From a virus: DNA of 24,479 nucleotides. This document shows positions 1 to 24,479 of this stretch, piece by piece. The stretch is from IMG/VR virus record IMGVR_UViG_3300021376_000342, positions 1 through 24,479 of that record; one strand, given 5' to 3'. How positions within the stretch are numbered: the stretch's first letter is position 1; each line of letters opens with the position of its first letter. The notes below the pieces were generated by a model. It had not been told where the DNA came from, searched no databases, and worked only from the letters and a program-made list of their open reading frames with translations. The translations under genes and the position numbers were made by a program.

Positions 1-2893
1 GACCAGCAAGGGCTTGAATTCTTTGCAATCTTGGTGTGACGGCTGCGGTGAATCTTGCAAGCGTTGCTTCACGATTCGGTTCGAATATGATTGTTTGTGC
101 AATCTCTCGAACTTGTCGACGAATATCGATGAGAAGACGCCTTACGTTGATTCTATCAAGAGCAGATGCAGATTGAAGCATCGTCTTTTGTCCCCATACA
201 ACGACTCCGCCCTTCGGACCGGTTCCACCACGAGTATTTGTCGCTGGAGCGTAGAGAGGGTTTATGTCTTCATCATATAGAGAATCCAAATCTGAATCCT
301 TCAATTGGATGCTAGTCTCTAAAGTCGAAGCTAGATCTCCTCTCGTCAAACCTGCTGGTGCAAACCATGGATGACCTAATGCATCGTTCAATGCTAAAGC
401 TCCCATTACAACGACCGAGGGTGGTACGACGACTGAGTTTGTTTGTAATGATGGATCTTTAATTAAAACGTCAGGGAAGTAAGACGCGGCAAATGAAGTG
501 TTGATGTTTCTTGCCTTGTGTTGAGCCACTGTTTCAGTGACTGAAGGCTTAACGTTAGACGTGATGTTTATTAAGTTTCCATCCTTGTCTACTTGTTCAA
601 CATCCATTATGTAAAGAGCGTCAAAACGTTCTTCAGTCGCTCTGATAGCTTCATCAGTAACGATTGGTGCTCTAATACCTGGTATTGCTAGAAGTTGAAT
701 ATCAACATTCGTTGTATTCTTCATTACCTCTAATGCCTTCAAATATGAAGATACGTTTGGTCCTGAAGATCTTCCTCTGTTAACGTCATCCATGTCTGCG
801 ACGACTGCAGCGTTGTTAATTTCTGACTCATCCTTGTCAAAGATGTTGACCCCGTCAAATCCTCCTTGCATGATGAAAGAGAACTTAAGAAACTTTCTGT
901 TCATCGAAGTGGAAAGATCGCTGACACTTACTGCTCTTGTCTTTGCTGAATCATCTGCAATGATGTTTCCTTTTCTGACGTAAGTAGCATGCTTCCAGTC
1001 ATCATTTTGAACGACTGTTCCATTTGATCCTGTCAATATCTTGACATTTTCTAGAGTAAACAAGTTGTTGCAGAATCTATCAACATCAATGATTCCATTT
1101 TGATCAGTGTCAGCAGCACCTGAGTTATCGCTGACTGCAAAGTTTATATTAGCTGTAGAATGAACTGGAAAATGTTTTGTAAAGCTGTTGAATGACTTGT
1201 CTTGTAAAACTGAACTATTTTGCTCTGTTAAACTTGTTATATGCTCAAACTTTGCACCCCAGTGGTATCTTGAGTTAACCTGAGTCTGTTGCCCTGTTCC
1301 ATCATTTAAATGATTTCTGAAAGGAAGCGGAGGCTCAACTGTATTTCTTAAGAATGTTGAAACTGAAAGTGCAGAAGAATCAACCATTTCTAGAGAAGTC
1401 AATGGAGATGACCCAGAAGTAACTAAGTGAGAAATTCCTCTAAAACCCATCGGAAGAGCAGTAGGGTCAACCGCTTGTTCAGAAACCGCTGATGAAACTT
1501 CTACTCTAACGTACCTTGATCTTAGCTCATAGTTTCCTTCGATGACAAGCTTTTGTGCAGCTTCGTCACGATCGAAATCGTAATATGCTTCAATATCACC
1601 TATTACTTTAGAAATGTATCTATCTGAAGAAGGATCTAGGTTGATTCCTTCCCATTTCTCTAGAGCCTTTTGATCGATGTCTGTGTCATTTAAGCTTCTT
1701 ATTACCAAACTAAATGATCCATACTTGTTGAGAGGATCAGAAGATGGAGTGATGTTGTATATTGAAATCTTAAATTTATTAGAAATTCCATTACCAGAAT
1801 CTAGGGAATGAAGTTTAAATAAGTTTTCATGAGTTCCACCAAACTTTTGAGAGATTACCCAAGGAGATTTTGCGTTTGAAAATCTGTCTCTGAATCCTTC
1901 GTAGTTTGGAACGACCGAAGATCCAACATTTCTTGCTAAAGAAGAAGTCAATAAGAAAACAGACCTTTCGCTGTTTTCAACTGGAGATTCTGAAACTACT
2001 CCTGTACCTGTGACTGCTGCTAATGTTGGGTGAATATCCCAGTGTGCCGCAAGATAATGTCCTGCTTGCTGAATCTTATACGGATCGGTGTTTAAGACCT
2101 TGCTGATATAATTTGCTGCAGTTACATCAAACGATGCAGTTAAAACGTTTGGATATGAAGAATCAGTTCCCTTATGACCGTTAAGAAGAATTGTGAATTC
2201 TTGCTTTTCATGAGAAGAACCGAATACCAATGAACCTAAAAGGGTTCCCTTTGCAGTAGCGTCAGAACCGACAAGGGCTGAGGAAGGTTTGCTTGAATCA
2301 AGCATATTAGCAGAAGCTGAAAGTCTTAAAACGACGCCAGAAGGAGCCATCAAAACTCCTCTAACGATAGGAACCGATGTATCTTCTCCAATTCCGTTAG
2401 AGCTTCCTATTCCTTGAAGTCCAGCTTGATTAAAGAAATTGCATCCAGCAGACTCAGACATGAAGCATCCTAAGAAATATGTCCTTCCTAAAACTCCATT
2501 TTGATTTGCATAAGGATTTGAAGATAAAGTACCATTTGAAGAAGGTAATTGTTCTCCAACAGTGAATCCAGCGTTCGTTACATCTCCAGCGACTTGACCG
2601 CTGATTGATCTCTTTTTACCATCTCCGACGCCCAAAACTCTAAGATAAGTAACTGAAGTTGCTCTTTTAAGCCATTCAGCTACAGCCATCGGTCCAAACT
2701 TCTTAGAATCGCTAGCACCGAATTTTGCAAAAAAGTCATTTAGTGTACCATAAGTTAAAGGAACAAAAGCTGGTCCTTTCACTGCGGTACCAATTATTCC
2801 TGCAGGGACTCCTGTAGGCGATGTCTCAACTGGTCCTGTTAAATCAATTTCTCTAGCTGTTACCCCTGCGCTTCCAAATTTGAGCTGTGCCAT
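1..2893 (-). CDS. gp18: Tail sheath protein, copy A (3' end off the window)
   Basis: The frame is open from ATG 2893 to the left edge: 964 codons with no stop. It would form the contractile sheath around the tail tube of a myovirus. It is clearly homologous to the neighbouring sheath copy B. The N-terminus has the VPAGIIG and KGPAFVP motifs, then KKFGP and YLRVLG; the core has MQGGFDGVNIFD; the C-terminal region has NPLYAP..GVVVWGQKT and SALDRINVRRLL, typical of contractile sheath proteins of the gp18 superfamily. By comparison with copy B about 50 residues are missing past the edge. An AGGAG ribosome site (2902-2906) sits 8 nt before the ATG, and the motif GATACTTATCA (2917-2927) precedes it. 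At roughly 1000 residues it is much longer than T4 gp18 (659), so extra surface domains are likely. Family call firm; division of labour with copy B unknown. Confidence 0.88.
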   Translation of the reverse strand, partial: MAQLKFGSAGVTAREIDLTGPVETSPTGVPAGIIGTAVKGPAFVPLTYGTLNDFFAKFGASDSKKFGPMAVAEWLKRATSVTYLRVLGVGDGKKRSISGQVAGDVTNAGFTVGEQLPSSNGTLSSNPYANQNGVLGRTYFLGCFMSESAGCNFFNQAGLQGIGSSNGIGEDTSVPIVRGVLMAPSGVVLRLSASANMLDSSKPSSALVGSDATAKGTLLGSLVFGSSHEKQEFTILLNGHKGTDSSYPNVLTASFDVTAANYISKVLNTDPYKIQQAGHYLAAHWDIHPTLAAVTGTGVVSESPVENSERSVFLLTSSLARNVGSSVVPNYEGFRDRFSNAKSPWVISQKFGGTHENLFKLHSLDSGNGISNKFKISIYNITPSSDPLNKYGSFSLVIRSLNDTDIDQKALEKWEGINLDPSSDRYISKVIGDIEAYYDFDRDEAAQKLVIEGNYELRSRYVRVEVSSAVSEQAVDPTALPMGFRGISHLVTSGSSPLTSLEMVDSSALSVSTFLRNTVEPPLPFRNHLNDGTGQQTQVNSRYHWGAKFEHITSLTEQNSSVLQDKSFNSFTKHFPVHSTANINFAVSDNSGAADTDQNGIIDVDRFCNNLFTLENVKILTGSNGTVVQNDDWKHATYVRKGNIIADDSAKTRAVSVSDLSTSMNRKFLKFSFIMQGGFDGVNIFDKDESEINNAAVVADMDDVNRGRSSGPNVSSYLKALEVMKNTTNVDIQLLAIPGIRAPIVTDEAIRATEERFDALYIMDVEQVDKDGNLINITSNVKPSVTETVAQHKARNINTSFAASYFPDVLIKDPSLQTNSVVVPPSVVVMGALALNDALGHPWFAPAGLTRGDLASTLETSIQLKDSDLDSLYDEDINPLYAPATNTRGGTGPKGGVVVWGQKTMLQSASALDRINVRRLLIDIRRQVREIAQTIIFEPNREATLARFTAAVTPRLQRIQALAG

Positions 2894-2950: not shown

Positions 2951-5900
2951 TCAAACGAACTGAACTCCTGAATTTGTTACGATGAAGTCAATTGCTATAA
3001 ACTCAATTGCTCTTGTCGGAACAACGACGATTCTTCCATTAAGTCTGTTAAGATCGACATCTTCTTGTGTATTGTTAGTTTCATTCATGACGACTTGGTA
3101 TGCTTCAATACCAGCTTGTGCTTGAATTAATCCTAGTTGAAGTATCGAATCTGCAACGAACTTATTACGAACCGCTGGAGTGTTTTGTTCAAACACTATT
3201 CTATTTGCTATATTGATTATCAATCTCTTGACTTCTAAAAGTAATCTACGAACATTGACTCTATCAAGTGCAGACTTTCTTATCTGTAGCGTCTTCTGCC
3301 CATAAATTACGAATCCAAGTCTTGGGAATGTTGCAATTGGATTGATTCTTGCGTCGTATAGTCTATCTCTGTCAGAAACATTAAGTCTGACTTCAACGTT
3401 GTTGACGAAGTCAAGAGCTGCTCTGTTGAATCCTGCAGGAGCGAACCATGGATATGCAACCTTATCGTTAAATCCTAATGCTCCTAGTGCAGCAACTGAT
3501 GATGGAACTTTTACGTATCTGTTATTTGCTGTGTCATTTACGTAAACGTTAGGGAAATAAGTCGCAACATAATTGTTGTCGAAAGATCTAGCCTCAAATG
3601 TTGCAGCAGTGTTTTCGATGTTAATTTTTGTAGTTGAATCATCGTAGATACGATTATTGCTATCATCGTAGTTTGGAAGATCCATGACATACATTCCCAA
3701 TCCATAATCTCTTATTTTCTTTGATGTATAGTTCGTTATGTAGTCCTCTCGAATTCCTGGGAGTGCGAGTAGATTAACGTTAACCTGTAAAGGATCTGTC
3801 ATAACGTCTATTGCGGTGATGTATGAATTGACAGCGTTGTTATCAACACCAGCTCCTGCAAGATTAGTTAACATTCCAGGAGATACGAACGTAGATGATG
3901 CACCTCCCAAGGGTGTTTCAAAGGATGTAGCTTTATCATTCATCCTTGCTGCTGCAGGATCTAATATGTTCAATCCGTCAAATCCACCTTGCATAAAGGT
4001 AGTAAATTTAGCAAATGAAGAATATTTGTTGAACTCATACGGTTCGCCATTTGATAACAACGATGCAAACGTTATTCTTTCTCCTAAGAAAGGATCATTG
4101 ATTGTATACGTTGTTGGATCGACTTTTGCATTTCTAATGTATGCAGCTTCTTTCATGTGAGATCTAACAGTACCAGTAAGCTGTGTGAGCGTGCCTGCAG
4201 AAAATGCAACCTTGGATAATGAAAACTTGTTGTTATTAAAGTTATCTGCTCCAGAGCCGGTCACAAAAACGTCTAACTTTTTGATTCCACCAAACTTAGT
4301 ATAGCTTTCTAATAAAGAATTTTTTACTTCTGAAAGGTTAGAATTTAACGGAAGGTCATTTCTCTCAAACTTAACTCCCCAATAAAACTGAGGTGATGCA
4401 ACTTCTTGAGGTCCAGGATCTCCATCCCATGCAGGAGTTGTCATCGGGCCTTTTGTTACTTTGAACCTGAATGGAACAGGAGGAAGAATTGATTGAGAAA
4501 GAATTCCGACTGAATCAATAGAAAACACTCCAGTCAATCTGCTTGCAGCAGTTAAACCGTCAGACAAAGAATCATTTGTTTTTAACAGTTCAGGTCCTCT
4601 AAATCCGAATGGCAATGAAACAGCTGGAACTTTTTTGTCTTCTACATTTTGGGAAATTATTACCCTAACATATTTGGAAACGTTATCATACTTTCCGCTA
4701 GTTATTATTCTTCTTTCAGAAACTATATCTTGATCAAAGTCATAGGTTACTTTTCTATCTCCGATGACTTTTCCAATGTAGTTATCCGAATCTGGATCTA
4801 AAGAACAATTAACAAATTCTTCTAGAACGGCTGGATTTATATCTGTATCATTCCAGTCTCTTACTTGAACGTTAAACGTTCCATATTCATATGCTTCATT
4901 TTCAGAAACTTTTAGATTTGTTATTGAAATTTTGTATAAGCTATTTGCATATGCACCATCATCCAATGACTCGATTTGGAACAAATCATATTCAGTCGCT
5001 CCAAAAGGTTGTGATATAAAGTTAGAAGTTTTTGGTGATGTAAATCTTGTGTCAAATGCTCCGAAAGCTTGTCTAAATGTAGAAGAAGGTTCTCCTGAGA
5101 CATTGCTAGAGCTTAATGATCCGGACAAAATTGCAACATAATCATCATTTTCTACTGTTGCAATTTCATCGTCGACTGCAAAATCAGAGTAAAGCAAATG
5201 TTGATACTGAACGAATTTTTCAGGATCTCTGTTTAGAATTTTTGCAAAATAATCTCCGCTAGAGGGATCAAAAGATGCAGTATAAATTTTTATTCCAGGT
5301 ATCTGATCGTCGAACGCGAAAGCTGAACCTAGAGTTGAAGAAATGACTAACTTAAATTTGCCACTTTTTACTTGAGCAGCATCGTCGGCCGTAGTAGCTC
5401 CTACAAAAACCGGCTGGACGCTTTCATTTCCATCTAGTACCATCATTCTGGCGCCGGAAGCTAACATCACGACTCCTCTAACAAGACTAACGTTGTTAGT
5501 CTGCTCGCGCGAATCGTTGTCAGTAAACATAGGCATTCCATATGCTTCATTTGTTCGTAGCGTATGATCTGCAGTTATGAACTGAACGGCGCCGTTGTGA
5601 CGCCCTAAAGAATCATGAGAAGCTAAATTTCCTTCAAGCTTAAATCCAGCATTTTTTACTCTTCCTGTAAGAGAAGTTGAAGAAATATCAGTCGCAGTTC
5701 TATTAGCTCCTGCGCCTAATACTCTCATATAAGTCAACGCTGTTCTATTCTTTAAAAACTCATTAACGGCATAAGGACCAAATTTTTTAGGATCTAAATT
5801 ACCGAATAAGCTAACAAACTCATTGAAATTAGCGACAGTAACAGGAACAAATGCTGGTCCCTTATTCGACATTCCAATTACACCAGCTGGTACCCCTACC

Positions 5901-5977
5901 GGTCCTCCTCCTGGTGGCGCTTTTAATTCAATTTCTCTCTCAAAAAAATTAGGAGACCTAAAAACTTGCTCAGCCAT
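2951..5977 (-). CDS. gp18: Tail sheath protein, copy B
   Basis: A complete 1008-residue tail sheath protein. It shares with copy A the N-terminal block (VPAGVIG, NKGPAFVP, KKFGPYAV, YMRVLGAG), the central MQGGFDGLNILD motif and the C-terminal block (NPIATFPRLGFVIYGQKTLQ, SALDRVNVRRLL, then a helical region and VPTRAIEFIAIDFIV). The last part is the conserved sheath domain that packs on the tail tube. An AAGGAG site (5985-5990) lies 7 nt before ATG 5977. The motif AATACTTATAA (6012-6022) lies 34 nt upstream of the ATG. The gene follows the gp15 gene after a 68-bp gap with long T runs on the coding strand but no clear hairpin. It lies 57 bp before copy A, so the two probably arose by tandem duplication and then diverged strongly. 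Sheath function is well supported; whether both copies enter the virion is not visible. Confidence 0.9.
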   Translation of the reverse strand: MAEQVFRSPNFFEREIELKAPPGGGPVGVPAGVIGMSNKGPAFVPVTVANFNEFVSLFGNLDPKKFGPYAVNEFLKNRTALTYMRVLGAGANRTATDISSTSLTGRVKNAGFKLEGNLASHDSLGRHNGAVQFITADHTLRTNEAYGMPMFTDNDSREQTNNVSLVRGVVMLASGARMMVLDGNESVQPVFVGATTADDAAQVKSGKFKLVISSTLGSAFAFDDQIPGIKIYTASFDPSSGDYFAKILNRDPEKFVQYQHLLYSDFAVDDEIATVENDDYVAILSGSLSSSNVSGEPSSTFRQAFGAFDTRFTSPKTSNFISQPFGATEYDLFQIESLDDGAYANSLYKISITNLKVSENEAYEYGTFNVQVRDWNDTDINPAVLEEFVNCSLDPDSDNYIGKVIGDRKVTYDFDQDIVSERRIITSGKYDNVSKYVRVIISQNVEDKKVPAVSLPFGFRGPELLKTNDSLSDGLTAASRLTGVFSIDSVGILSQSILPPVPFRFKVTKGPMTTPAWDGDPGPQEVASPQFYWGVKFERNDLPLNSNLSEVKNSLLESYTKFGGIKKLDVFVTGSGADNFNNNKFSLSKVAFSAGTLTQLTGTVRSHMKEAAYIRNAKVDPTTYTINDPFLGERITFASLLSNGEPYEFNKYSSFAKFTTFMQGGFDGLNILDPAAARMNDKATSFETPLGGASSTFVSPGMLTNLAGAGVDNNAVNSYITAIDVMTDPLQVNVNLLALPGIREDYITNYTSKKIRDYGLGMYVMDLPNYDDSNNRIYDDSTTKINIENTAATFEARSFDNNYVATYFPNVYVNDTANNRYVKVPSSVAALGALGFNDKVAYPWFAPAGFNRAALDFVNNVEVRLNVSDRDRLYDARINPIATFPRLGFVIYGQKTLQIRKSALDRVNVRRLLLEVKRLIINIANRIVFEQNTPAVRNKFVADSILQLGLIQAQAGIEAYQVVMNETNNTQEDVDLNRLNGRIVVVPTRAIEFIAIDFIVTNSGVQFV

Positions 5978-9429: not shown

Positions 9430-9493
9430 TTGCGTAGAAAATTGAGCGTGGTGCTCGATTACTATGCAAAAAATAACTAAATTAGGTGGTAAA

Positions 9494-11866
9494 ATGGCTT
9501 TTACTAAAGTTCAGCAAGCACAAATTAGTGGTTCGCTTTCTTTCGACGATGGACTCTCTGCAGGTTCATTATTAGCTTCAAGATCTACTCTCGCAGGAGA
9601 TCTTGACGCACTTCGCTCTCAGATGAAGAGAGTCCTCGGCGTATCAAACTGGTACGACGAGCTCGATGGTTCACAAAACCTTTCTGCAATCTACGCTGCA
9701 GTTCATATGGACGGAACCAAGTCAAACTTCCAAGGCGCTATCGACGTCGCTGGAGTTGCTGATTTCGATTCAGCAGCATACTTCGCTAGCTCCGTCGGAA
9801 TCTCTGGTTCACTCGCGGTTGCTCAAGCAGCTTCATTCGCAAATGGAGCTTCTATCTCCGGTGCGGCGCTCGATGTCAATGCTGATTTAACTGCAAACAA
9901 GATCAGCATCGATGGAGATGCAGCAGGACGTCTCTACATCGTCGATGCTGATGGCTCCCTCAAGGACGAAGGAAACCTCATGTACAATGGATCGCAACTT
10001 GACGTCATTGGTAACTTTGATGTTTCTGGTTGGGCGGACATTGGTGGAGCTCTCGACGTAGGTGGAATCGCAACATTCGACTCAGCAATCAGCGGTTCTG
10101 CAGGCCTCGAAATCTCTGCCGGTGGTGCTTCAATCACAGGTGGAGCTGCAATCACAGGAGACCTTGCAGTCACCGAAGATGCAGCAATCATGGGCGACTT
10201 AAGCACGATGTCAGACCTTGCCGTTGCAGGAAACTCTGAACTCGTCGGTACACTCGCAGTGACCGGCAGCGTTCACATGTTAAGCTCTGCAAGAATCGAC
10301 GGTATCCTTGATGTAAACAACGTCGTTTCAGCATCCGCACTCAAGATTGATGGCGATGTTGCACAACGTCTCTACATCGTTAATGCTGACGGTTCCCTCA
10401 AGGATGAGTCCAAACTCACCTTCGACGGATCTGCATTATCAGTCGATGGTGGACTCTATGCAAGCGGACCAGCAGGGCTCTCTGGTTCTCTTCAAGTTGC
10501 AGGAATGGCTGGATTCGCTCAAGCCGTTTCTATGGCAAGCACACTCACCGTAACTGGTGCGACAACCCTCAACGGCGGATTGTCAATGGACTCCGGTGCA
10601 TTCTCAGTACAAGACGGAACAGGAAACGTTGCAACAGCCGGTTCATTGTCCGTCGCAGGAGGAGCACAACTCAATGGTGGATTAACAATGGATACAGACA
10701 AGTTCGTCGTTGCAAACGAAACTGGTAACACCTCCATTGCTGGTACACTCGGGGTTCTCGGCGCAGCACAACTCGGAAGCACACTCGGAGTAACAGGAGC
10801 AGTAACACTCTCCAGCACACTCTCTGCTGGTGCATCTACACTTTCATCACTCGGCGTTACAAACAACGCAACAGTCGGTGGAACGCTCGGCGTGACCGGA
10901 GCAGCTACATTCAATGCAGGTGCAACTATCAACGAAGCAGCTCTCGACGTCAACGCAAACTTAACTGCAAACAAGATCAGCATTGACGGCGACACAGCAC
11001 AACGCCTCTACATCGTTGATTCAGACGGTTCAATGAAGGACGAAGGAAACCTCATGTATGATGGATCTAAACTTGACATCATCGGTGGGCTCCGCGTTTC
11101 CGGTAACGCACAAGTTGATGGTGACCTTCTCGTCAAGGGCGCCTTCACCTACATCGAAACCACAAACATGAAGGTAAAGGATGCATTCATCTACCTTGCA
11201 ACAGGATCTAACGGATCAGTCGATTCCGGTTTCATCCTCAGCAAGGGTGCTGGTGCTTCTTACGACCTTGTGGTCGGACAAGACGGCGGAGCAGGAGAGC
11301 TCATCTTCGCACAAGTTGCACACAATGCAGCTGGTGATTCTCCAGCCGATCTTGCCGGAGCAGCCCTCGTTAAGGCTTGGATGTCTGGATCTTACTACGG
11401 CAGCGTGGAAGGAACAGAACTTGCTCATGTTGGAATCAGCGAAGGAAAGATGGAACTCAAGTCAGCAGCAGGAGTTGATCTCATGCTCGTTGCGCGTGGA
11501 GACGAATCCTTCAAATTAGCTGATGACGGCGACCAAGCACAATTTGAAGCACAATTCGGAGCGGGTGTGTCAATCGTTGATGCAATCATCTCTGCAGCTT
11601 CAGGTGGTAACTTCAAGCAAGATTCATTCGTGCCAGGAGTTGTTGCAGCTGACACAAACATCGCATTCTCTTCAGTCGGTACGCTCCGTGCCGGTGCAGT
11701 CGCTAGCGATGCCATCAAGAAGGTTGCAATGGATGTGTACCTCAACGGCGTTCGCCTTTCATACGGTGACGACTATATAATTTCTTCAACAACACAGCTT
11801 CAACTCAAGGTAGCTACAGTTGCTGAAGATAGAATCTTCGTCGCAATCCACAACGCAGCAGCCTGA
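9494..11866 (+). CDS. Large repetitive beta-rich virion protein (fibre/whisker/decoration type)
   Basis: I choose ATG 9494 (790 residues, MAFTKVQQAQISG...) because AGGTGG (9484-9489) lies just before it; ATG 9464 in the same frame has no convincing ribosome site. The chain consists almost wholly of short units such as GTLGVTGAATFN and GSLAVAQAASFANG, the style of trimeric beta-structured fibre shafts. Three longer units contain KISIDGD..RLYIVD.DGS.KDE. Near the C-terminus, IETTNMKVKDAFIYLATGS and SGFILSKGAG resemble modules in phage tail-fibre and structural proteins. The chain ends with VYLNGVRLSYGDDYIISS, a fold-like unit also seen in the protein at 12609-13013. Codons are mostly C-ending (GAC, AAC, ATC, CTC), unlike its AT-ending neighbours, which suggests very high expression. 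It has its own promoter region and terminator. Its position beside gp13 recalls T4 wac (fibritin), but no sequence link to wac is visible. Confidence 0.75.
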   Translation: MAFTKVQQAQISGSLSFDDGLSAGSLLASRSTLAGDLDALRSQMKRVLGVSNWYDELDGSQNLSAIYAAVHMDGTKSNFQGAIDVAGVADFDSAAYFASSVGISGSLAVAQAASFANGASISGAALDVNADLTANKISIDGDAAGRLYIVDADGSLKDEGNLMYNGSQLDVIGNFDVSGWADIGGALDVGGIATFDSAISGSAGLEISAGGASITGGAAITGDLAVTEDAAIMGDLSTMSDLAVAGNSELVGTLAVTGSVHMLSSARIDGILDVNNVVSASALKIDGDVAQRLYIVNADGSLKDESKLTFDGSALSVDGGLYASGPAGLSGSLQVAGMAGFAQAVSMASTLTVTGATTLNGGLSMDSGAFSVQDGTGNVATAGSLSVAGGAQLNGGLTMDTDKFVVANETGNTSIAGTLGVLGAAQLGSTLGVTGAVTLSSTLSAGASTLSSLGVTNNATVGGTLGVTGAATFNAGATINEAALDVNANLTANKISIDGDTAQRLYIVDSDGSMKDEGNLMYDGSKLDIIGGLRVSGNAQVDGDLLVKGAFTYIETTNMKVKDAFIYLATGSNGSVDSGFILSKGAGASYDLVVGQDGGAGELIFAQVAHNAAGDSPADLAGAALVKAWMSGSYYGSVEGTELAHVGISEGKMELKSAAGVDLMLVARGDESFKLADDGDQAQFEAQFGAGVSIVDAIISAASGGNFKQDSFVPGVVAADTNIAFSSVGTLRAGAVASDAIKKVAMDVYLNGVRLSYGDDYIISSTTQLQLKVATVAEDRIFVAIHNAAA
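9866..11086 (+). repeat. Three internal coding repeats in the 790-aa protein
   Basis: The unit at 9866-10012 (147 nt, beginning ALDVNADLTANKISIDGD) recurs at 10940-11086 with the same length and only a few changes. A shorter, more diverged copy is at 10337-10450. Between them lie many 10-20 residue beta units. The near-identical first and last copies suggest recent duplication or gene conversion within the shaft, so shaft length may vary between relatives. Confidence 0.8.
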
Positions 11867-18071: not shown

Positions 18072-18836
18072 TTAATTTACCTTGCGCGTTGCTGTCGTCA
18101 TGACGCGAGTCGAAAAGTTATCGTTGTCTTGAGGTACAAGCGACATTTTTTCAGTTGATGCATAAGCTCGCTGAGTTTCTTGCTTTTGCATTTTCTTTGG
18201 ATTTCTTGGGGGTTTTTTATGAGCATAATGCGCTTTCCAAACTTCTTTTGTAAATCCATAGTCTAAAAGAACGACTCTTCCGTCTGAAGATTTACCCCAA
18301 TGTTCTATTCTTACAACATCGCCTAACATTAACTCTGAATTTTCTATAGTGTTTACAGTGTTTTTTGCAAGATCCGTTGTCGTCTCACTCTTTTCTAGAA
18401 TAGCTTTTTTTACTTCTTGTACAAAATTTTCAAAGTTTATTCCAGCTTCTTTTTCAAACTCTGCTTCTGTATTTAAAATTCTTACTGAATCTGCAATCAA
18501 CCAACGATATCCAGAATCATAATCTTGAATCTTTGCAACCATCGGTTTTGTAAGGGGATTCGTAAAAACATCTAACTCTGCTATGTTTTGATCAATTCCT
18601 TTTTCGTTTAAAGCTATTTTCAAAACTTTATTGCTTGTCAATGAGTAAGCAATTCTTGAAGAACCTTCACCTAAAGCTTGCAAAAACGAATCTGCATAAG
18701 CTTTCATAAAGTTTATGTTTTCTAAAGACTTAAATTTTCTAATATCAAATTTATTTCCAAATGAAGATCCAGTTTTTACAGTTCGAATTTTTTCTAAAAT
18801 CAATCGAACATATTCTTTAATTAGATGCCTATCCAT
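18072..18836 (-). CDS. Protein with kinase-like fold
   Basis: 254 residues. It shows kinase landmarks in order: a glycine-rich loop LGEGSSRIAY (55-64), a VLKIA lysine (Lys73), a helix-C-like Glu87, a hinge region near WLIADSV (112-118), a putative catalytic loop LGDVVRIEHWG with Asp173, and LLDYGFTKE with a DYG (192-194) in place of DFG. There is no HRD motif; the GD form recalls aminoglycoside and choline kinase-type folds, but the Asn expected 5 residues after the Asp is not present (Glu/His there). The C-terminal tail is basic and disordered (HKKPPRNPKKMQKQE). It could be an active phage kinase or a pseudokinase packaged in the virion. No ribosome site is evident before ATG 18836. It is next to, and co-directional with, the 825-residue protein. 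Confidence 0.72.
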   Translation of the reverse strand: MDRHLIKEYVRLILEKIRTVKTGSSFGNKFDIRKFKSLENINFMKAYADSFLQALGEGSSRIAYSLTSNKVLKIALNEKGIDQNIAELDVFTNPLTKPMVAKIQDYDSGYRWLIADSVRILNTEAEFEKEAGINFENFVQEVKKAILEKSETTTDLAKNTVNTIENSELMLGDVVRIEHWGKSSDGRVVLLDYGFTKEVWKAHYAHKKPPRNPKKMQKQETQRAYASTEKMSLVPQDNDNFSTRVMTTATRKVN

Positions 18837-18882: not shown

Positions 18883-20484
18883 TTATTTAAGGTTTATTAA
18901 AGATGGTATGATGTTTGTAGAAACTCCATATTCTGATGTTTTGTTAGAATCTCCGTTTGACGTCGCAAAAACAGCCGCCGCAGATCCAAACGCAGAAACT
19001 TGTTCAGACGTTTTTGTAGAATCGTCCATTCCTGTCAAAGGGTTGTATCCGACTGCATTTTTTCCATTAACTTTATTTGCATACACATGACCGAACCATC
19101 CATTTTTTATATGGTTTCTAGGATCCATGACATACATCCAATTGCATGCATCAGGAGTTGCATCAGGCCATGTAGATCCTACAAGCGGAGTATGAGGCGT
19201 ATCACCATAAGCAACGAAAACAGTGCTCTTATCAAGCTTCTCTGTTGGGTTTTCAGGGTCTATCTGATTCGATAAATATCCATAAAATCCATCCAAAGCC
19301 TTCCCTAAATGTTTTGTCGTATTTCTTCCTTGAGTTAATAACATAGAATTATCGAATGTAACGTGGGGGTCTGTGAAGGTCGTGTCGCTGGTTGGACCAG
19401 GAGACAGAGCCACGATTGCTGTCTTCGACACCCCTAACGTAAATGCTTTTGCAACGACAATAAGAACTCGACCAAACTCCTCAATTCCTACTCTTTGTGA
19501 AGCAGTCATATAAGACGAATTTGCTGTCATACCATCAATCATCTCTTGAATTCCAAAATCTACTAAATCTTGGCTGGTGGGTGTCAGCTGCGCAGCAAAA
19601 TTAAGACCTATAATCCTTGCAGCATTTTTTGTCACTGACATTTGAGGTAACCATGTCGATCTATCAGATGACTTTCTTAATCCTACCAAAGCTTTATAAT
19701 ATGTCTCAAACAATTCTTGATCAACCTTACTTGCCAACGTGAACTGACTTGCAGCTGAATTAAAAAGGTCAATCATTCCTAACGAACTAGGAACAGTTGC
19801 AACTTCAGGAGCGCCCGGGGCTCTACCATATTTTACAGGATCAATTCCTAAAACAGGAACTATTGCTGACGACCCAGCGGCTCCTAAAGAAGCTAATGCT
19901 GCTTGAAGAGATGAATTTCCTGATAATGACATATGCGAAATTGGGAATTCCGTATGCGTTTCATCCTTTCCAGACATATACGCAGTAACAGGATATTTTG
20001 GCTTTCCATTGATGTGGTCGAACCATGGTGCATCAGGACCATAAAAAAATGGCTTGTCTCCACCGTCCCATGATTTTACCCCTGAAGGCAAAGACGGCAT
20101 TGCATTTCCTTTACCGGGCGTATATGTTCCTCTATACCCATTTGCAGGGTTGTAACCTCTTTGAGATGTGTAAAGGTATGAAGACGTTCCTCCAAACGCA
20201 GAAGACAATCCAGGAACGTTTGCATTTTGACAAGATTTTAATCCAACATCAGCAACCGGCCATAGCTCTTGAAACCAAGCGTATACGCCGTTTGGAGAAG
20301 GAACCAACAAAGATCTTCCATAGTTCGACACAGCTGCTTCAGCTAATCCATATCCACCTTCATCAGATAGAAAATTTAGAAGCTTTGTTCTTTCAATTCC
20401 CACAGCGGCTGCTGCAACTGTACACATCTTTAAAAATGTTCTACGGCTATCGCCACGAAGTTCTTTTAATTTCCAATTTGACAT
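18883..20484 (-). CDS. Tat-exported DUF1501-like protein
   Basis: 533 residues. The N-terminus has a classic twin-arginine signal: SRRTFLK (residues 13-19) followed by a hydrophobic stretch MCTVAAAAVGI. It should therefore cross the inner membrane already folded. The body resembles DUF1501 proteins (alkaline-phosphatase-like superfamily, usually with Tat signals): DPHVTFDN, then GKALDGFYGYLSNQI and STVFVAYGDTPHTPL near the C-terminus, in the places where the family usually has a WDTH-like motif, an LD.AL..LL helix and EFGRT. The last motif is replaced by AYGDTP, so activity may differ. A purine-rich site (AAGGGAAAGATGAG) precedes ATG 20484. It is the third gene of a three-gene export cassette, 15 nt after the second. 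The distant DUF1501 match is from memory and moderate. Confidence 0.72.
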   Translation of the reverse strand: MSNWKLKELRGDSRRTFLKMCTVAAAAVGIERTKLLNFLSDEGGYGLAEAAVSNYGRSLLVPSPNGVYAWFQELWPVADVGLKSCQNANVPGLSSAFGGTSSYLYTSQRGYNPANGYRGTYTPGKGNAMPSLPSGVKSWDGGDKPFFYGPDAPWFDHINGKPKYPVTAYMSGKDETHTEFPISHMSLSGNSSLQAALASLGAAGSSAIVPVLGIDPVKYGRAPGAPEVATVPSSLGMIDLFNSAASQFTLASKVDQELFETYYKALVGLRKSSDRSTWLPQMSVTKNAARIIGLNFAAQLTPTSQDLVDFGIQEMIDGMTANSSYMTASQRVGIEEFGRVLIVVAKAFTLGVSKTAIVALSPGPTSDTTFTDPHVTFDNSMLLTQGRNTTKHLGKALDGFYGYLSNQIDPENPTEKLDKSTVFVAYGDTPHTPLVGSTWPDATPDACNWMYVMDPRNHIKNGWFGHVYANKVNGKNAVGYNPLTGMDDSTKTSEQVSAFGSAAAVFATSNGDSNKTSEYGVSTNIIPSLINLK

Positions 20485-20499
20485 TTCTCATCTTTCCCT

Positions 20500-21507
20500 T
20501 CATTGACATGAATGTGCTGCTGAAAGCAACGCTGCGACAACAATATTTCTTTTCTTCATTACGTCAGTTGCATCATTTTTATTCGCTTTATCAAGCAACA
20601 AGTTACAAAGCAACATGTGATCTTCAGTAGCTGGAATTCCAAGCAAACAGCTTACGGATTCTTCGACACAACTGCCGTCGCTGGCAAACATAGGTTTGTT
20701 TTTACCATTCAATGTGCATGCAGGTGCTTTTAAAGGATCTCCAATGTTCGTGATTATTTGCGGAGCAGCTTGAACAAAAATGTCCATTAACTTCATTGCA
20801 GATGCTGTTGAATGTTCTTCTTTTTCTCCTAGACGTGAATCAAGCTTTGGAACGCCCAATGCGTCTTTTCCAGAAAAATAAAGAAATCCAGCAGCGGCTG
20901 GTTTAGCAACGCAATATCCATCAGCAGCGTCAGGAGAATTATTCCCAACATCCAAACAGCTTCTGTTGACTTGGTTCATTTTATCATCTTGATTGCAAAA
21001 ACAAACTTCTCCGCCTGAACAAACAGGATCATTCGTCCCATTGGCAACAGTGACTGCCATCTCACAAGACGATCCGCTTCCTCCAAAAATTGATCCTAAC
21101 GTTTGTGATGAACCAAAAACCGAAATTTGTGTCGTTCGAACGTCAGAAACGTTACCCATAGGTACTGCAACTCCTCTAGATTTTAAAAAATTTCCTAGTT
21201 GAACGTACGAAAGTTTGTGGCAACCGTGAAGTCTCGTAGATATTTCATCTTGCATGGGCGCTTCAAAGTTAGGCAAATCATTCATTCCTGAAGAACTAGA
21301 AGATTGTGGATCATTAACAGAACCACCGGCTCCTGAAGTTGCAGAGGTTGTACCGGAAGCAACAGAAACAGCGACTGAAGATGATTGAACTGACGAATTT
21401 ACGCTGTCTTTTGCACAATCATTTTCGCCTACGTCAGCAACAGGTGCTCCACAAGACTGCAACAATAAAACAAAAGAAAAAATAACTATTTTTTGTAATG
21501 ATCTCAT
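20500..21507 (-). CDS. Exported lipoprotein, middle gene of cassette
   Basis: I choose ATG 21507 (335 residues) because GAGG lies 7 nt upstream and the signal peptide MRSLQKIVIFSFVLLLQSCG then has a proper lipobox with Cys19; ATG 21528 would add seven residues. After a Ser/Thr/Gly-rich linker, the domain starts near LHGCHKLSYVQLGNFLKSRG. It contains many cysteines (GSSCEMAV, CSGGEVCFCNQDD, RSCLDV, GYC, APACTLN, GSCVEESVSCLLG, LLCNLLL, AAHSCQ), suggesting several disulphides in the periplasm. I know no name for this family. It begins 1 nt after the haem lipoprotein stop and is followed by the Tat protein, so one mRNA is likely and the three products probably work together. Confidence 0.78.
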   Translation of the reverse strand: MRSLQKIVIFSFVLLLQSCGAPVADVGENDCAKDSVNSSVQSSSVAVSVASGTTSATSGAGGSVNDPQSSSSSGMNDLPNFEAPMQDEISTRLHGCHKLSYVQLGNFLKSRGVAVPMGNVSDVRTTQISVFGSSQTLGSIFGGSGSSCEMAVTVANGTNDPVCSGGEVCFCNQDDKMNQVNRSCLDVGNNSPDAADGYCVAKPAAAGFLYFSGKDALGVPKLDSRLGEKEEHSTASAMKLMDIFVQAAPQIITNIGDPLKAPACTLNGKNKPMFASDGSCVEESVSCLLGIPATEDHMLLCNLLLDKANKNDATDVMKKRNIVVAALLSAAHSCQ

Positions 21508-21508
21508 T

Positions 21509-22957
21509 TTAAAACCTCGTAAAATCATCAGAAATAAGGATCGTTCTAAAAACTTTTTTCAAATTGTATCCGTTTCCTTTGAACTGGGAAACTAACTTTG
21601 ACATGGTCAATAACTCAGGATTCTCGTCTTTACGATCAGGCAAGCTTACCCAACTTCTACCACCTATCTCAGTAATGTCTGCCCTTCCCATAGAATAATT
21701 CCACATTCTCTTGACCGCACATTCAATGACTTCATCATCTTGTGACATGACTTTTCCTAATTCGTTGATCGTGCCAGCAAGAGCAGCAGAATCAGCACCA
21801 TTAACTTTCATGGTTTTTTTCCATGCAGTAACGTTGTTTCCACCGTTCGGACATTTGGAAGGATCAATGCATAACCAGTCAGACATCTTAGCTCTTGGCG
21901 ATCCTTCTACGGGAACAAAAACAGAATACTCACCGCTTGAAGTCAATGGTTGGAATATTCCCTTTGAATCAAACTGACTGAACAGCGGTGAACGATGATT
22001 CCATGTTGCATGACAATTTGCGCAAACATTGCTTGCATTATATGCATGAAAATCAACTCTTCCACCGTTACATGATCCAGCTATCTCGTTAACTGGCCAT
22101 TTGTTTTGATATCCTGGAATTGGATTTACTCCGCTACAAGGTGACATAGTAGGTGGTTGATCAGTCGGTTCTCCACCAGCTTGCTCATTTCCAGATCTAC
22201 ATAAGAATGTCTCATGATAAAAACGATTACGTCTAAAAGACAAGTTTCCATAGTACAGGCTTTGTGCACCAGGATCGGTAAGAATCCCGGAATGATTCAT
22301 TCCTCCAGGCAAATTCATACAATTACCGTCAGAAAACATTTTTGTCAAAGGGGTATACGTCGGACACGTATTGGTCTCTTGAGTTAAAATGTTTCTCCAA
22401 TCTTTCTCTTCATACACAATCCTTGCAGCAAACGTAGGTGCTGTATCCCTCGTAGGTTCGCCTGAAACAGCGGCTGCTCCACCCATCTTAAATGTGTATT
22501 TAAAAAACTCAACAAGAGTATCTGCAAAACGCGGATCAGATAATTTCTTGTCGATTAATTCTTCATATTTGTCTCTCTGTTGACCGCTCGGCAAATCTCC
22601 TAACTCATAGATCTCTGACAACGTAGGAGAATCTCCAACGATCAAAATGCTAGCTGTTCTCAACGCTTCAGAATAGTCAACTTCTCTTTTATCTAACTCA
22701 GTCTCTTCTTTCTGAGATCCTCCTGAAGATGTTGAAGTAACAGAAACGCCAACTGTCTTGCCGGTCGACGTCTCAACATTTCCAACGCCCGTAGAAACAG
22801 TCGCTGCGTCGTCTTGTGGAGACGGACAATCATTAAAAACAGCAGATGTATCACCAGCAAGCTTATTCGGATTCGGACGCTCACAACCATACAAGGAAGT
22901 GATGACCACAGACATAAAAACCATTCCTCGTTTCAAAAAGCTTTTTTCCATAGACAT
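21509..22957 (-). CDS. Lipoprotein with c-type haem motif, DUF1592/DUF1588/DUF1585-like
   Basis: 482 residues with a lipoprotein signal (hydrophobic VFMSVVITSLYGC, Cys25) and a Ser/Thr/Gly linker. SEALRTASILIVGDSPTLSE (about 96-115) and DPRFADTLVEFFKYTF (141-156) resemble the N-terminal region of planctomycete-type cytochrome-associated proteins. NHSGILTD..NLSFRRNRFYHETFLC (221-253) resembles DUF1588. VCANCHATW (311-319) is a CxxCH haem attachment site. The end, NGYNLKKVFRTILISDDF, matches the usual end of DUF1585-type domains. It would be anchored at a membrane, with covalent haem added by the host maturation system. ATG 22957 and ATG 22951 are both possible; no ribosome site is clear. First gene of the cassette, 41 nt after the HNH gene. 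Confidence 0.8.
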   Translation of the reverse strand: MSMEKSFLKRGMVFMSVVITSLYGCERPNPNKLAGDTSAVFNDCPSPQDDAATVSTGVGNVETSTGKTVGVSVTSTSSGGSQKEETELDKREVDYSEALRTASILIVGDSPTLSEIYELGDLPSGQQRDKYEELIDKKLSDPRFADTLVEFFKYTFKMGGAAAVSGEPTRDTAPTFAARIVYEEKDWRNILTQETNTCPTYTPLTKMFSDGNCMNLPGGMNHSGILTDPGAQSLYYGNLSFRRNRFYHETFLCRSGNEQAGGEPTDQPPTMSPCSGVNPIPGYQNKWPVNEIAGSCNGGRVDFHAYNASNVCANCHATWNHRSPLFSQFDSKGIFQPLTSSGEYSVFVPVEGSPRAKMSDWLCIDPSKCPNGGNNVTAWKKTMKVNGADSAALAGTINELGKVMSQDDEVIECAVKRMWNYSMGRADITEIGGRSWVSLPDRKDENPELLTMSKLVSQFKGNGYNLKKVFRTILISDDFTRF

Positions 22958-22962
22958 AAAAC

Positions 22963-22991
22963 AATTATATAGTCCATAAGAAAATTATATA
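22963..22991 (-). promoter_or_regulatory. Two TATATAATT boxes upstream of the export cassette
   Basis: TATATAATT occurs twice on the minus strand (22983-22991 and 22963-22971), exactly 20 bp apart, each containing a perfect TATAAT. A third copy lies at 23746-23754, upstream of the gene at 23345-23743. No -35 box is visible, so these are -10-type candidates only. Confidence 0.4.
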
Positions 22992-22998
22992 AAAAGTT

Positions 22999-23325
22999 TT
23001 ATTGTTTCCTACGTCTTAATATCAAAGGATTTTCTTTTACCTTCCAGAATTCCTTCTCGAATGGTGGATCTTCTCCGGCACGGAACCACATGAGTCTTCT
23101 TCCTCCCGTAGAAGAATACACACCGATAATCGTTATCTCACCAGCATGAACTAAATCATGACATGAATGGCAAACAACCGCTAGATTGTGATTATCATTG
23201 GTGCATCTAGAGTCACATCTAGGAATGATGTGATGATAGTTTATCGCTGCAGGTCTATCATAACCACAAATCTCGCAACGTTCTTTTGCTAATTTAGGCT
23301 GACCATGTGTTCTACGCTGCTTCAC
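22999..23325 (-). CDS. HNH endonuclease
   Basis: 108 residues. Zinc-ribbon HNH layout: CEICGY (17-22), HHIIPRCDS (31-39), NLAVVCHSCHDLVHAGE, giving the Cys pairs CxxC/CxxC, catalytic His-His, Asn and His. The basic C-terminus (RRRKQ) may bind DNA. It is typical of free-standing phage HNH enzymes, which can act in homing or in DNA packaging. Its distance from any visible terminase gene and its position beside a foreign-looking cassette favour homing. The start is GTG 23325, 19 nt after the previous stop, with no clear ribosome site. Confidence 0.88.
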   Translation of the reverse strand: MKQRRTHGQPKLAKERCEICGYDRPAAINYHHIIPRCDSRCTNDNHNLAVVCHSCHDLVHAGEITIIGVYSSTGGRRLMWFRAGEDPPFEKEFWKVKENPLILRRRKQ

Positions 23326-23773: not shown

Positions 23774-24479
23774 TCACGATAAATCCATAAAGTACTTATG
23801 CGATCCACACCCATATATCCTAGAAACTTTTGCTTCAAACGTGATCTGACGCTCTGTCTTTCCGCCTTTTGCCTTAAACTTAAATCTATTGTAACGAAGT
23901 TGATTATCAGTATACCAATAATCTATAGCTGTTGATCCTAGAAAAGAAAACCCTACAGACTTATATCCGTTTCCTTCACCAATGCGACGATCAACATAAG
24001 TTATAATTCCACGATACCCATTTTGGGCGCACCATTCTTTAGCTCTCTTCATCAATTTAGATAAACCTCCAGGAACGGAGGTCAATTGAGCAGTGCTGTA
24101 TCGAGCAATCTCTAGATAACCTTCATACTTCTTGCCGTTCCTTGGTGTACGAAGCGACAGGGCAGCGACGACGGTACCACTCCTGTCTCTCAATCCCCAC
24201 GTTACCTTGGACGGGACGTATCCTGCGATGTGTGTAGAATCGAAGAAAGACCTTTGTTCTTGTGTGCCTAATTCGACGACCTTTGTGGACCAGGTCTTAC
24301 ACCTGTGACGATCCATACCGAGGCGGTGGCGGATCATCGACTCGCATATCGTTCGCTTGTCTCTCCATTCATCCTCAAATATCTGCAGCAACTTTATGCC
24401 GTTCTTCGCAGCAAGGACGGATTTTTCTAGATGCTTGTTCTTATCAAAAACCCCTTGTTTAGAACCTTCGCTGTGCCAG
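23774..24479 (-). CDS. Vsr-like phage nuclease (5' end off the window)
   Basis: The frame is open to the right edge (234 residues visible). It begins within the motif WHSEGSKQGVFDKNKHLEKS and continues GIKLLQIFEDEW, the signature of a family of phage proteins with a very-short-patch-repair-like endonuclease fold. Next come a region like STHIAGYVPSKVTWGLRDRS and a long C-terminal domain (LEIARYSTAQLTSVPGGLSK, ITYVDRRIGEGNGYKSVGF, IDYWYTDNQLRYNRFKFK) always found with it. Such genes are free-standing and scattered in large phages and are thought to be homing-type nucleases. A TTG at 24391 is not the true start, since coding sequence runs past it. The catalytic N-terminus, including any zinc ribbon, lies outside the window. 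Confidence 0.82.
   Translation of the reverse strand, partial: WHSEGSKQGVFDKNKHLEKSVLAAKNGIKLLQIFEDEWRDKRTICESMIRHRLGMDRHRCKTWSTKVVELGTQEQRSFFDSTHIAGYVPSKVTWGLRDRSGTVVAALSLRTPRNGKKYEGYLEIARYSTAQLTSVPGGLSKLMKRAKEWCAQNGYRGIITYVDRRIGEGNGYKSVGFSFLGSTAIDYWYTDNQLRYNRFKFKAKGGKTERQITFEAKVSRIYGCGSHKYFMDLS

Follow-up and report, generated by a model that had tools for sequence, protein, structure and literature searches.

Gene trees and gene order show that an operon encoding three exported proteins, one of them a predicted haem lipoprotein, has been captured from bacteria at least twice by T4-like phages, in the same genome neighbourhood. We propose, with roughly even confidence, that the captured operon is an active envelope enzyme module that supplements the host's own, a reading that we favour over a change of the host surface that excludes other phages.

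The cassette and its phage genome

The window analyzed here is the whole IMG/VR record IMGVR_UViG_3300021376_000342 (24,479 bases). By PHROG and Pfam matches it encodes two tandem tail sheaths, a sheath stabiliser and a head-tail adaptor, and it also encodes a peptidase with a peptidoglycan-binding domain. Among the markers tested for T4-like myophages (tail sheath, sheath stabiliser, T4-type major head protein and head-tail adaptor), phrog_23, 227 and 211 were found in the window and phrog_138 in a related 211-kb record (G008), where homologues of the window's structural genes lie mostly in the same order, with 72–91% identity for the sheath, stabiliser and adaptor genes. By these matches the window is a fragment of a T4-like myophage, and the triplet sits in its head/tail region. 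The cassette and its surroundings are as follows.

18072..18836, minus strand: phrog_4301 gene (earlier "kinase-like"), with a match to a family of unknown function only
18883..20484, minus strand: g1, predicted Tat-exported protein, remote DUF1501 relative; 533 aa
20500..21507, minus strand: g2, predicted Cys-rich exported lipoprotein without known family; 335 aa
21509..22957, minus strand: g3, predicted exported mono-haem c lipoprotein of a divergent PSCyt2/PSD2 (DUF1549/DUF1585) type; 482 aa, one CxxCH (CANCH)
22958..22998, minus strand: g3 leader, AT-rich, with a TATAAT-like hexamer ~10 nt before the ATG
22999..23325, minus strand: HNH endonuclease, which marks the insertion neighbourhood
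23774..24478, minus strand: C-terminal part of a phage homing endonuclease (phrog_3339), the gene being cut by the contig end

An earlier note on this DNA had described three adjoining co-directional genes with gaps of 1 and 15 nt, and this layout held: g3, g2 and g1 are intact co-directional ORFs, with 15 nt between g2 and g1 and 1 nt between g3 and g2 if g2 starts at 21507 (an ATG after ACGAGG); the longest g2 ORF begins at 21528 and overlaps g3. The two lipoprotein signals and the twin-arginine signal that it had read were likewise borne out. The Tat signal of g1 exceeds the cut-off of NCBIfam TIGR01409 (20.0 bits, cut-off 16.7), the N-termini of g2 and g3 are lipoprotein signals, and the lipobox cysteines of g2 and g3, the twin arginines of g1 and the CxxCH of g3 (C312..H316) are invariant across about 20 phage homologues, the CxxCH also in all aligned bacterial homologues. 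As for the flanks, the HNH gene stood, but the "Vsr-like" nuclease proved to be the homing endonuclease part and the "kinase-like" gene matched phrog_4301 only.

The g3 leader has no clear ribosome site, and neither do the g3 leaders in five other contigs (L018, L021, L024, L026 and L036), where the region upstream of g3 is an AT-rich leader with TATAAT- or TATTAT-like hexamers close to the ATG. Such a leader may be a putative phage promoter of the cassette's own, giving a leaderless transcript. The T4 late promoter TATAAATA showed no enrichment, and a search of G008 for a late-specific upstream motif returned none that was convincing.

Two other features of these phage genomes are worth recording. 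The tail-sheath genes are tandem paralogues, two in the window (2-2893 and 2951-5977) and three in G008 (30487-39918), of about 1000 aa each and 28–50% alike. The window also carries, on the opposite strand at 9464-11866 (+), a repetitive 800-aa gene of ~50% GC in a 40% GC genome, with partial likeness to a phage structural protein family.

The first three scans of IMG/VR returned 16, 28 and 14 loci in which g1 and its neighbours recur, and broader profiles added more. Counted by contig name, about 38 contigs besides the window carry cassette genes, whose order is the same in every contig long enough to show it, and g2 and g3 lie directly upstream of 21 of the 22 distinct g1 sequences (some g3 genes being cut by contig ends). 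Records of 204,651, 211,097 and 187,069 bases hold one copy each, in contigs that are possibly partial. The bacterial origin of the cassette genes, documented below, might raise the suspicion of an assembly chimera of phage and bacterial DNA, but the cassette DNA has phage-like third-position GC and is linked to HNH and capsid genes in many contigs. Because many metagenome assemblies made independently contain the same junctions, a chimera is ruled out, its probability being very small; the join is real, and the cassette lies inside a phage genome as the earlier note had placed it.

Among sequenced phages and in the literature we found no counterpart. Neither g1 (in either version) nor g3 had a match among 50,697 sequenced phages, a bacterial DUF1501 protein likewise had no match in sequenced phages, and a literature search found no phage system of this kind. 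Within IMG/VR, g3 matches were restricted to contigs of the two triplet-carrying phage groups described below. The position of the genes within the structural region would suit ordinary virion proteins whose N-termini resemble signals by chance, yet no PHROG family matches g1, g2 or g3, and the twin arginines, lipobox cysteines and CxxCH are invariant; close bacterial orthologues in bacterial operons rule out this reading, to which we attach a negligible probability.

Bacterial relatives, hosts and a second capture

When one genome per species was scanned, ten loci came up, every one in a Myxococcota MAG and most in MAGs labelled Polyangiaceae, with g1 identities of 51–76%; at best, phage g1 proteins and freshwater Polyangiaceae copies share 76% identity. 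The bacterial loci lie in DNA of 63–71% GC among bacterial neighbours, with g2 before g1, and g3 too in most cases where the contig reaches that far. In the MAGs nearest to the phage copies, two to three close copies stand alongside one diverged copy. A match was found in 16 of 331 Myxococcota genomes, and nearly all of those loci have g2 and g3 homologues beside g1, so the triplet is an old bacterial operon. A search of viral and bacterial genomes for the triplet, which had been suggested as a check, therefore recovered it both in the IMG/VR contigs and in Myxococcota. In several bacterial loci (L053, L054, L057 and L060) the operon often adjoins a large Clp-type N-domain-like gene upstream of g3, a neighbour that may have a possible functional link to the operon.

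The window's phages (group 1) make up a single clade of the g1 tree (99/98), inside the bacterial clade that holds the freshwater MAGs; they group with L054 at 88/85, which falls short of naming the exact donor. The g2 tree agrees on nesting in bacterial clades, but does not resolve the window-phage clade itself. Trees and operon conservation both give the cassette the host-derived origin by which an auxiliary metabolic gene is recognised, and they strongly support the view that it is a bacterial operon from freshwater Polyangiaceae-like (Myxococcota) genomes, in agreement with the earlier note's suggestion of a module taken from a host. These large uncultured lake viruses probably infect myxobacteria-like bacteria (Polyangiaceae), an assignment based on gene kinship only.

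The G008 record also encodes (L141:16245-18563) a 772-aa Cys/Trp-rich lipoprotein with YVCGWRWREV repeats and no Pfam match, which is 66–83% identical to genes of the same Polyangiaceae-like MAGs and was not found in the other phage contigs tested. By this kinship it is a second host-derived envelope gene; it therefore supports the host assignment, and it fits an enzyme or an exclusion reading alike.

A profile scan added three more phage contigs (L198, L199 and L201; group 2), one of them of 200,303 bases, in which g1 is only 34% identical to that of the window. For group 2, both g1 and g2 fall within another bacterial clade (g1: 97/91 with L105), and the two phage groups are close by their capsid protein (80%). 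In both groups the triplet lies a short way downstream of the capsid gene, but the same HNH gene, which related phages retain whether or not they have the cassette, is on one side of it in group 1 and on the other in group 2. A single capture followed by common descent does not explain the clades of groups 1 and 2 and their HNH sides. Separate bacterial clades and opposite HNH sides instead imply two bacterial transfers, or a capture and a replacement.

Among 80 capsid relatives, those with a capsid identity of at least 74% and at least 5 kb downstream divide about evenly into carriers and non-carriers of the operon, and records of 298, 162 and 66 kb are without it anywhere. The contig of L017/L196 (around 939-1749) has lost g3, g2 and the N-terminal half of g1; only the C-terminal half is left, preceded by remnants of a homing endonuclease. 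Because of this decayed contig and the close relatives that lack the operon, we regard it as not essential. The slot downstream of the capsid gene varies (L201, L210, L220, L222, L223 and L267); it contains homing endonucleases, HNH, nucleotidyltransferase-like, CxxC-rich or glycosyltransferase-like genes, or little else.

Third-position GC is 0.22–0.40 in the phage copies, as in phage genes, compared with 0.77–0.89 in the bacterial copies, and so indicates long residence in phages. With median pN/pS values of 0.15 (g1), 0.22 (g3) and 0.28 (g2), at synonymous sites near saturation, the phage copies are under strong purifying selection, tightest on the Tat protein g1. Of the 43 g1 columns that are conserved with no more than one exception among 32 bacterial g1 proteins, four vary in phage group 1 and two in group 2; none of the 20 phage g1 proteins breaks the twin arginines, H177, D372, P373, H374, D428, W439 or D441. 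Judged by these alignments, the phage copies retain the export and haem residues and nearly all family-invariant residues.

Relationships of the three proteins

Window g3 falls under the Pfam cut-offs for PSD2 (PF07624; 21.5 vs 25.8) and PSCyt2 (PF07583; 18.5 vs 29.8), whereas its bacterial homologues exceed some of them (L054, PSD2 29.5; L060, PSCyt2 44.1). These profile scores make g3 a probable, if divergent, member of the PSCyt/PSD group; the "DUF1588/1585-type" label that it had been given is weak for the window protein itself and is reached by some of its bacterial relatives.

Pfam DUF1501 (PF07394) did not match window g1 at E ≤ 1, and neither DUF1501 nor HXXSHH matched any of 30 g1 homologues at E ≤ 0.1. 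A profile of diverse g1 homologues aligned collinearly with DUF1501 in hhalign (probability 96, E 4e-9 in a pairwise comparison) and also with HXXSHH/DUF1552 (PF07586; probability 94); a narrow g1 alignment reached a probability of only 7 against DUF1501. The D-x-H motif of DUF1501 is retained as DPH (372-374), the histidine of GRDH is absent, and GRTPR...GRDH has become GDTPxxP...WPDxTP. As this last motif is not retained, a catalytic role of g1 is not certain. The "DUF1501-like" description therefore survives as remote homology and fails as a Pfam match, and we class g1 as a remote DUF1501 relative only.

An AlphaFold model of g1 reached a pLDDT of 73.7 with the wider alignment (34 with the narrow one), and a fold search with the former returned no match at E ≤ 0.001. 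Its best PDB matches, LtaP, sulfatases, iPGM and autotaxin, all had E > 0.2 and were mostly alkaline-phosphatase-superfamily enzymes; the best BFVD match was a DUF1501-annotated protein of an uncultured phage (E 0.11, non-significant). A PDB sequence search gave no credible match, and searches of Pfam, PHROGs and NCBIfam with g1 and g2 found no family beyond the Tat signal. The profile and structure searches that the earlier note had advised thus yielded a PSCyt/PSD likeness for g3, neither a Pfam family nor a significant fold for g1, and no known family for g2.

Proposed role and comparison with known systems

We propose that phages of ~200 kb with T4-like gene sets captured a complete envelope operon and keep it as an active copy. 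Expression during infection would probably be late, as suggested by its co-orientation with capsid and tail genes. The products would rely on host systems for Sec/lipoprotein and Tat export and for cytochrome-c maturation: g3 and g2 would be membrane-anchored as lipoproteins, g1 would fold in the cytoplasm before Tat export, and the three together may form a periplasmic or outer-membrane enzyme with g1 as the catalytic unit, remotely DUF1501-like and perhaps of the alkaline-phosphatase superfamily, and g3 as the electron-transfer subunit. The phage copy would supplement or outlast the host paralogues, and the enzyme would act on the envelope or on an imported substrate, maintaining nutrients or electron flow as host expression falls. 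Retention of all three genes, the haem site and the invariant residues, with g1 most constrained, argues for an active enzyme over mere display, and the capture of two different paralogues in the same neighbourhood suggests selection for a shared activity.

Since two of the three products are lipoproteins, surface blocking fits too. As a tentative alternative, less probable than the enzyme module, the phage may display its own version of the envelope complex, or modify the surface with it, for remodelling or superinfection exclusion; competing phages could then not adsorb or, on an equally tentative footing, released progeny would avoid sticking to debris. The several diverging paralogues that hosts maintain, the patchy occurrence among closely related phages and the second host-derived Cys-rich lipoprotein of G008 would all suit exclusion. 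Receptor-blocking phage lipoproteins are known, such as T5 Llp, which acts on FhuA from the periplasm (PMC9586334). The cassette shares with T5 Llp and Cor (PMC9586334) the principle of phage-encoded lipoproteins in the host envelope, but these excluders are small single proteins, whereas here a whole system of three larger proteins, with haem and a Tat protein, is kept together with its invariant residues, most tightly in g1, which is not a lipoprotein. A chemical change of the host envelope by a haem-linked DUF1501-like complex, of which phages captured different bacterial versions to switch the surface type and lock out competitors, is rather unlikely. Still more improbable is a prolonged carrier state in which the triplet helps the infected cell or its population, say in substrate use or competition, rather than the acute production of phage: a moron-like patchy gene set with a candidate promoter of its own would accord with it, but the T4-like gene set and the run of the cassette with structural genes would not.

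In other bacteria, PSCyt genes have genes for DUF1501/HXXSHH-type proteins as neighbours. With those proteins g1 shares collinearity by profile and a common twin-arginine-type N-terminus, but its homologues lack their Pfam match and the GRTPR...GRDH motif is replaced. Host genes carried by phages as auxiliary metabolic genes or morons include psbA in T4-like cyanophages; the cassette resembles such genes in being host-derived, patchy, placed beside structural genes and under purifying selection. It differs in that a whole three-gene operon for exported haem lipoproteins was taken up at least twice, which, as far as we could find, is new. In freshwater Verrucomicrobia, a 2017 study found PSCyt genes adjoining conserved partner genes of unknown functions (PMC5615132). 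Like these PSCyt/PSD sets, the cassette pairs a predicted exported haem-c protein of PSCyt2/PSCyt3/PSD type with a conserved partner; unlike them, it is a fixed triplet with an extra Cys-rich lipoprotein, a partner outside Pfam DUF1501 and a g3 lipoprotein of ~480 aa with one CxxCH, found in phages and Myxococcota.

The result singles out Polyangiaceae-like freshwater bacteria as probable hosts of an uncultured phage clade with genomes of ~200 kb and reveals a variable slot beside the capsid gene in that clade. PSCyt/DUF1501-type sets fill many genomes of Planctomycetota, Verrucomicrobiota and Myxococcota and, to our knowledge, have no known function; nor do we know of one for the triplet, even in the bacterium. 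The phage triplet offers a small self-contained gene set for assaying such systems. That phages have taken it up repeatedly implies that the operon earns its place during infection, and suggests a part in infection for a bacterial enzyme system of the surface or periplasm that has so far gone unstudied.
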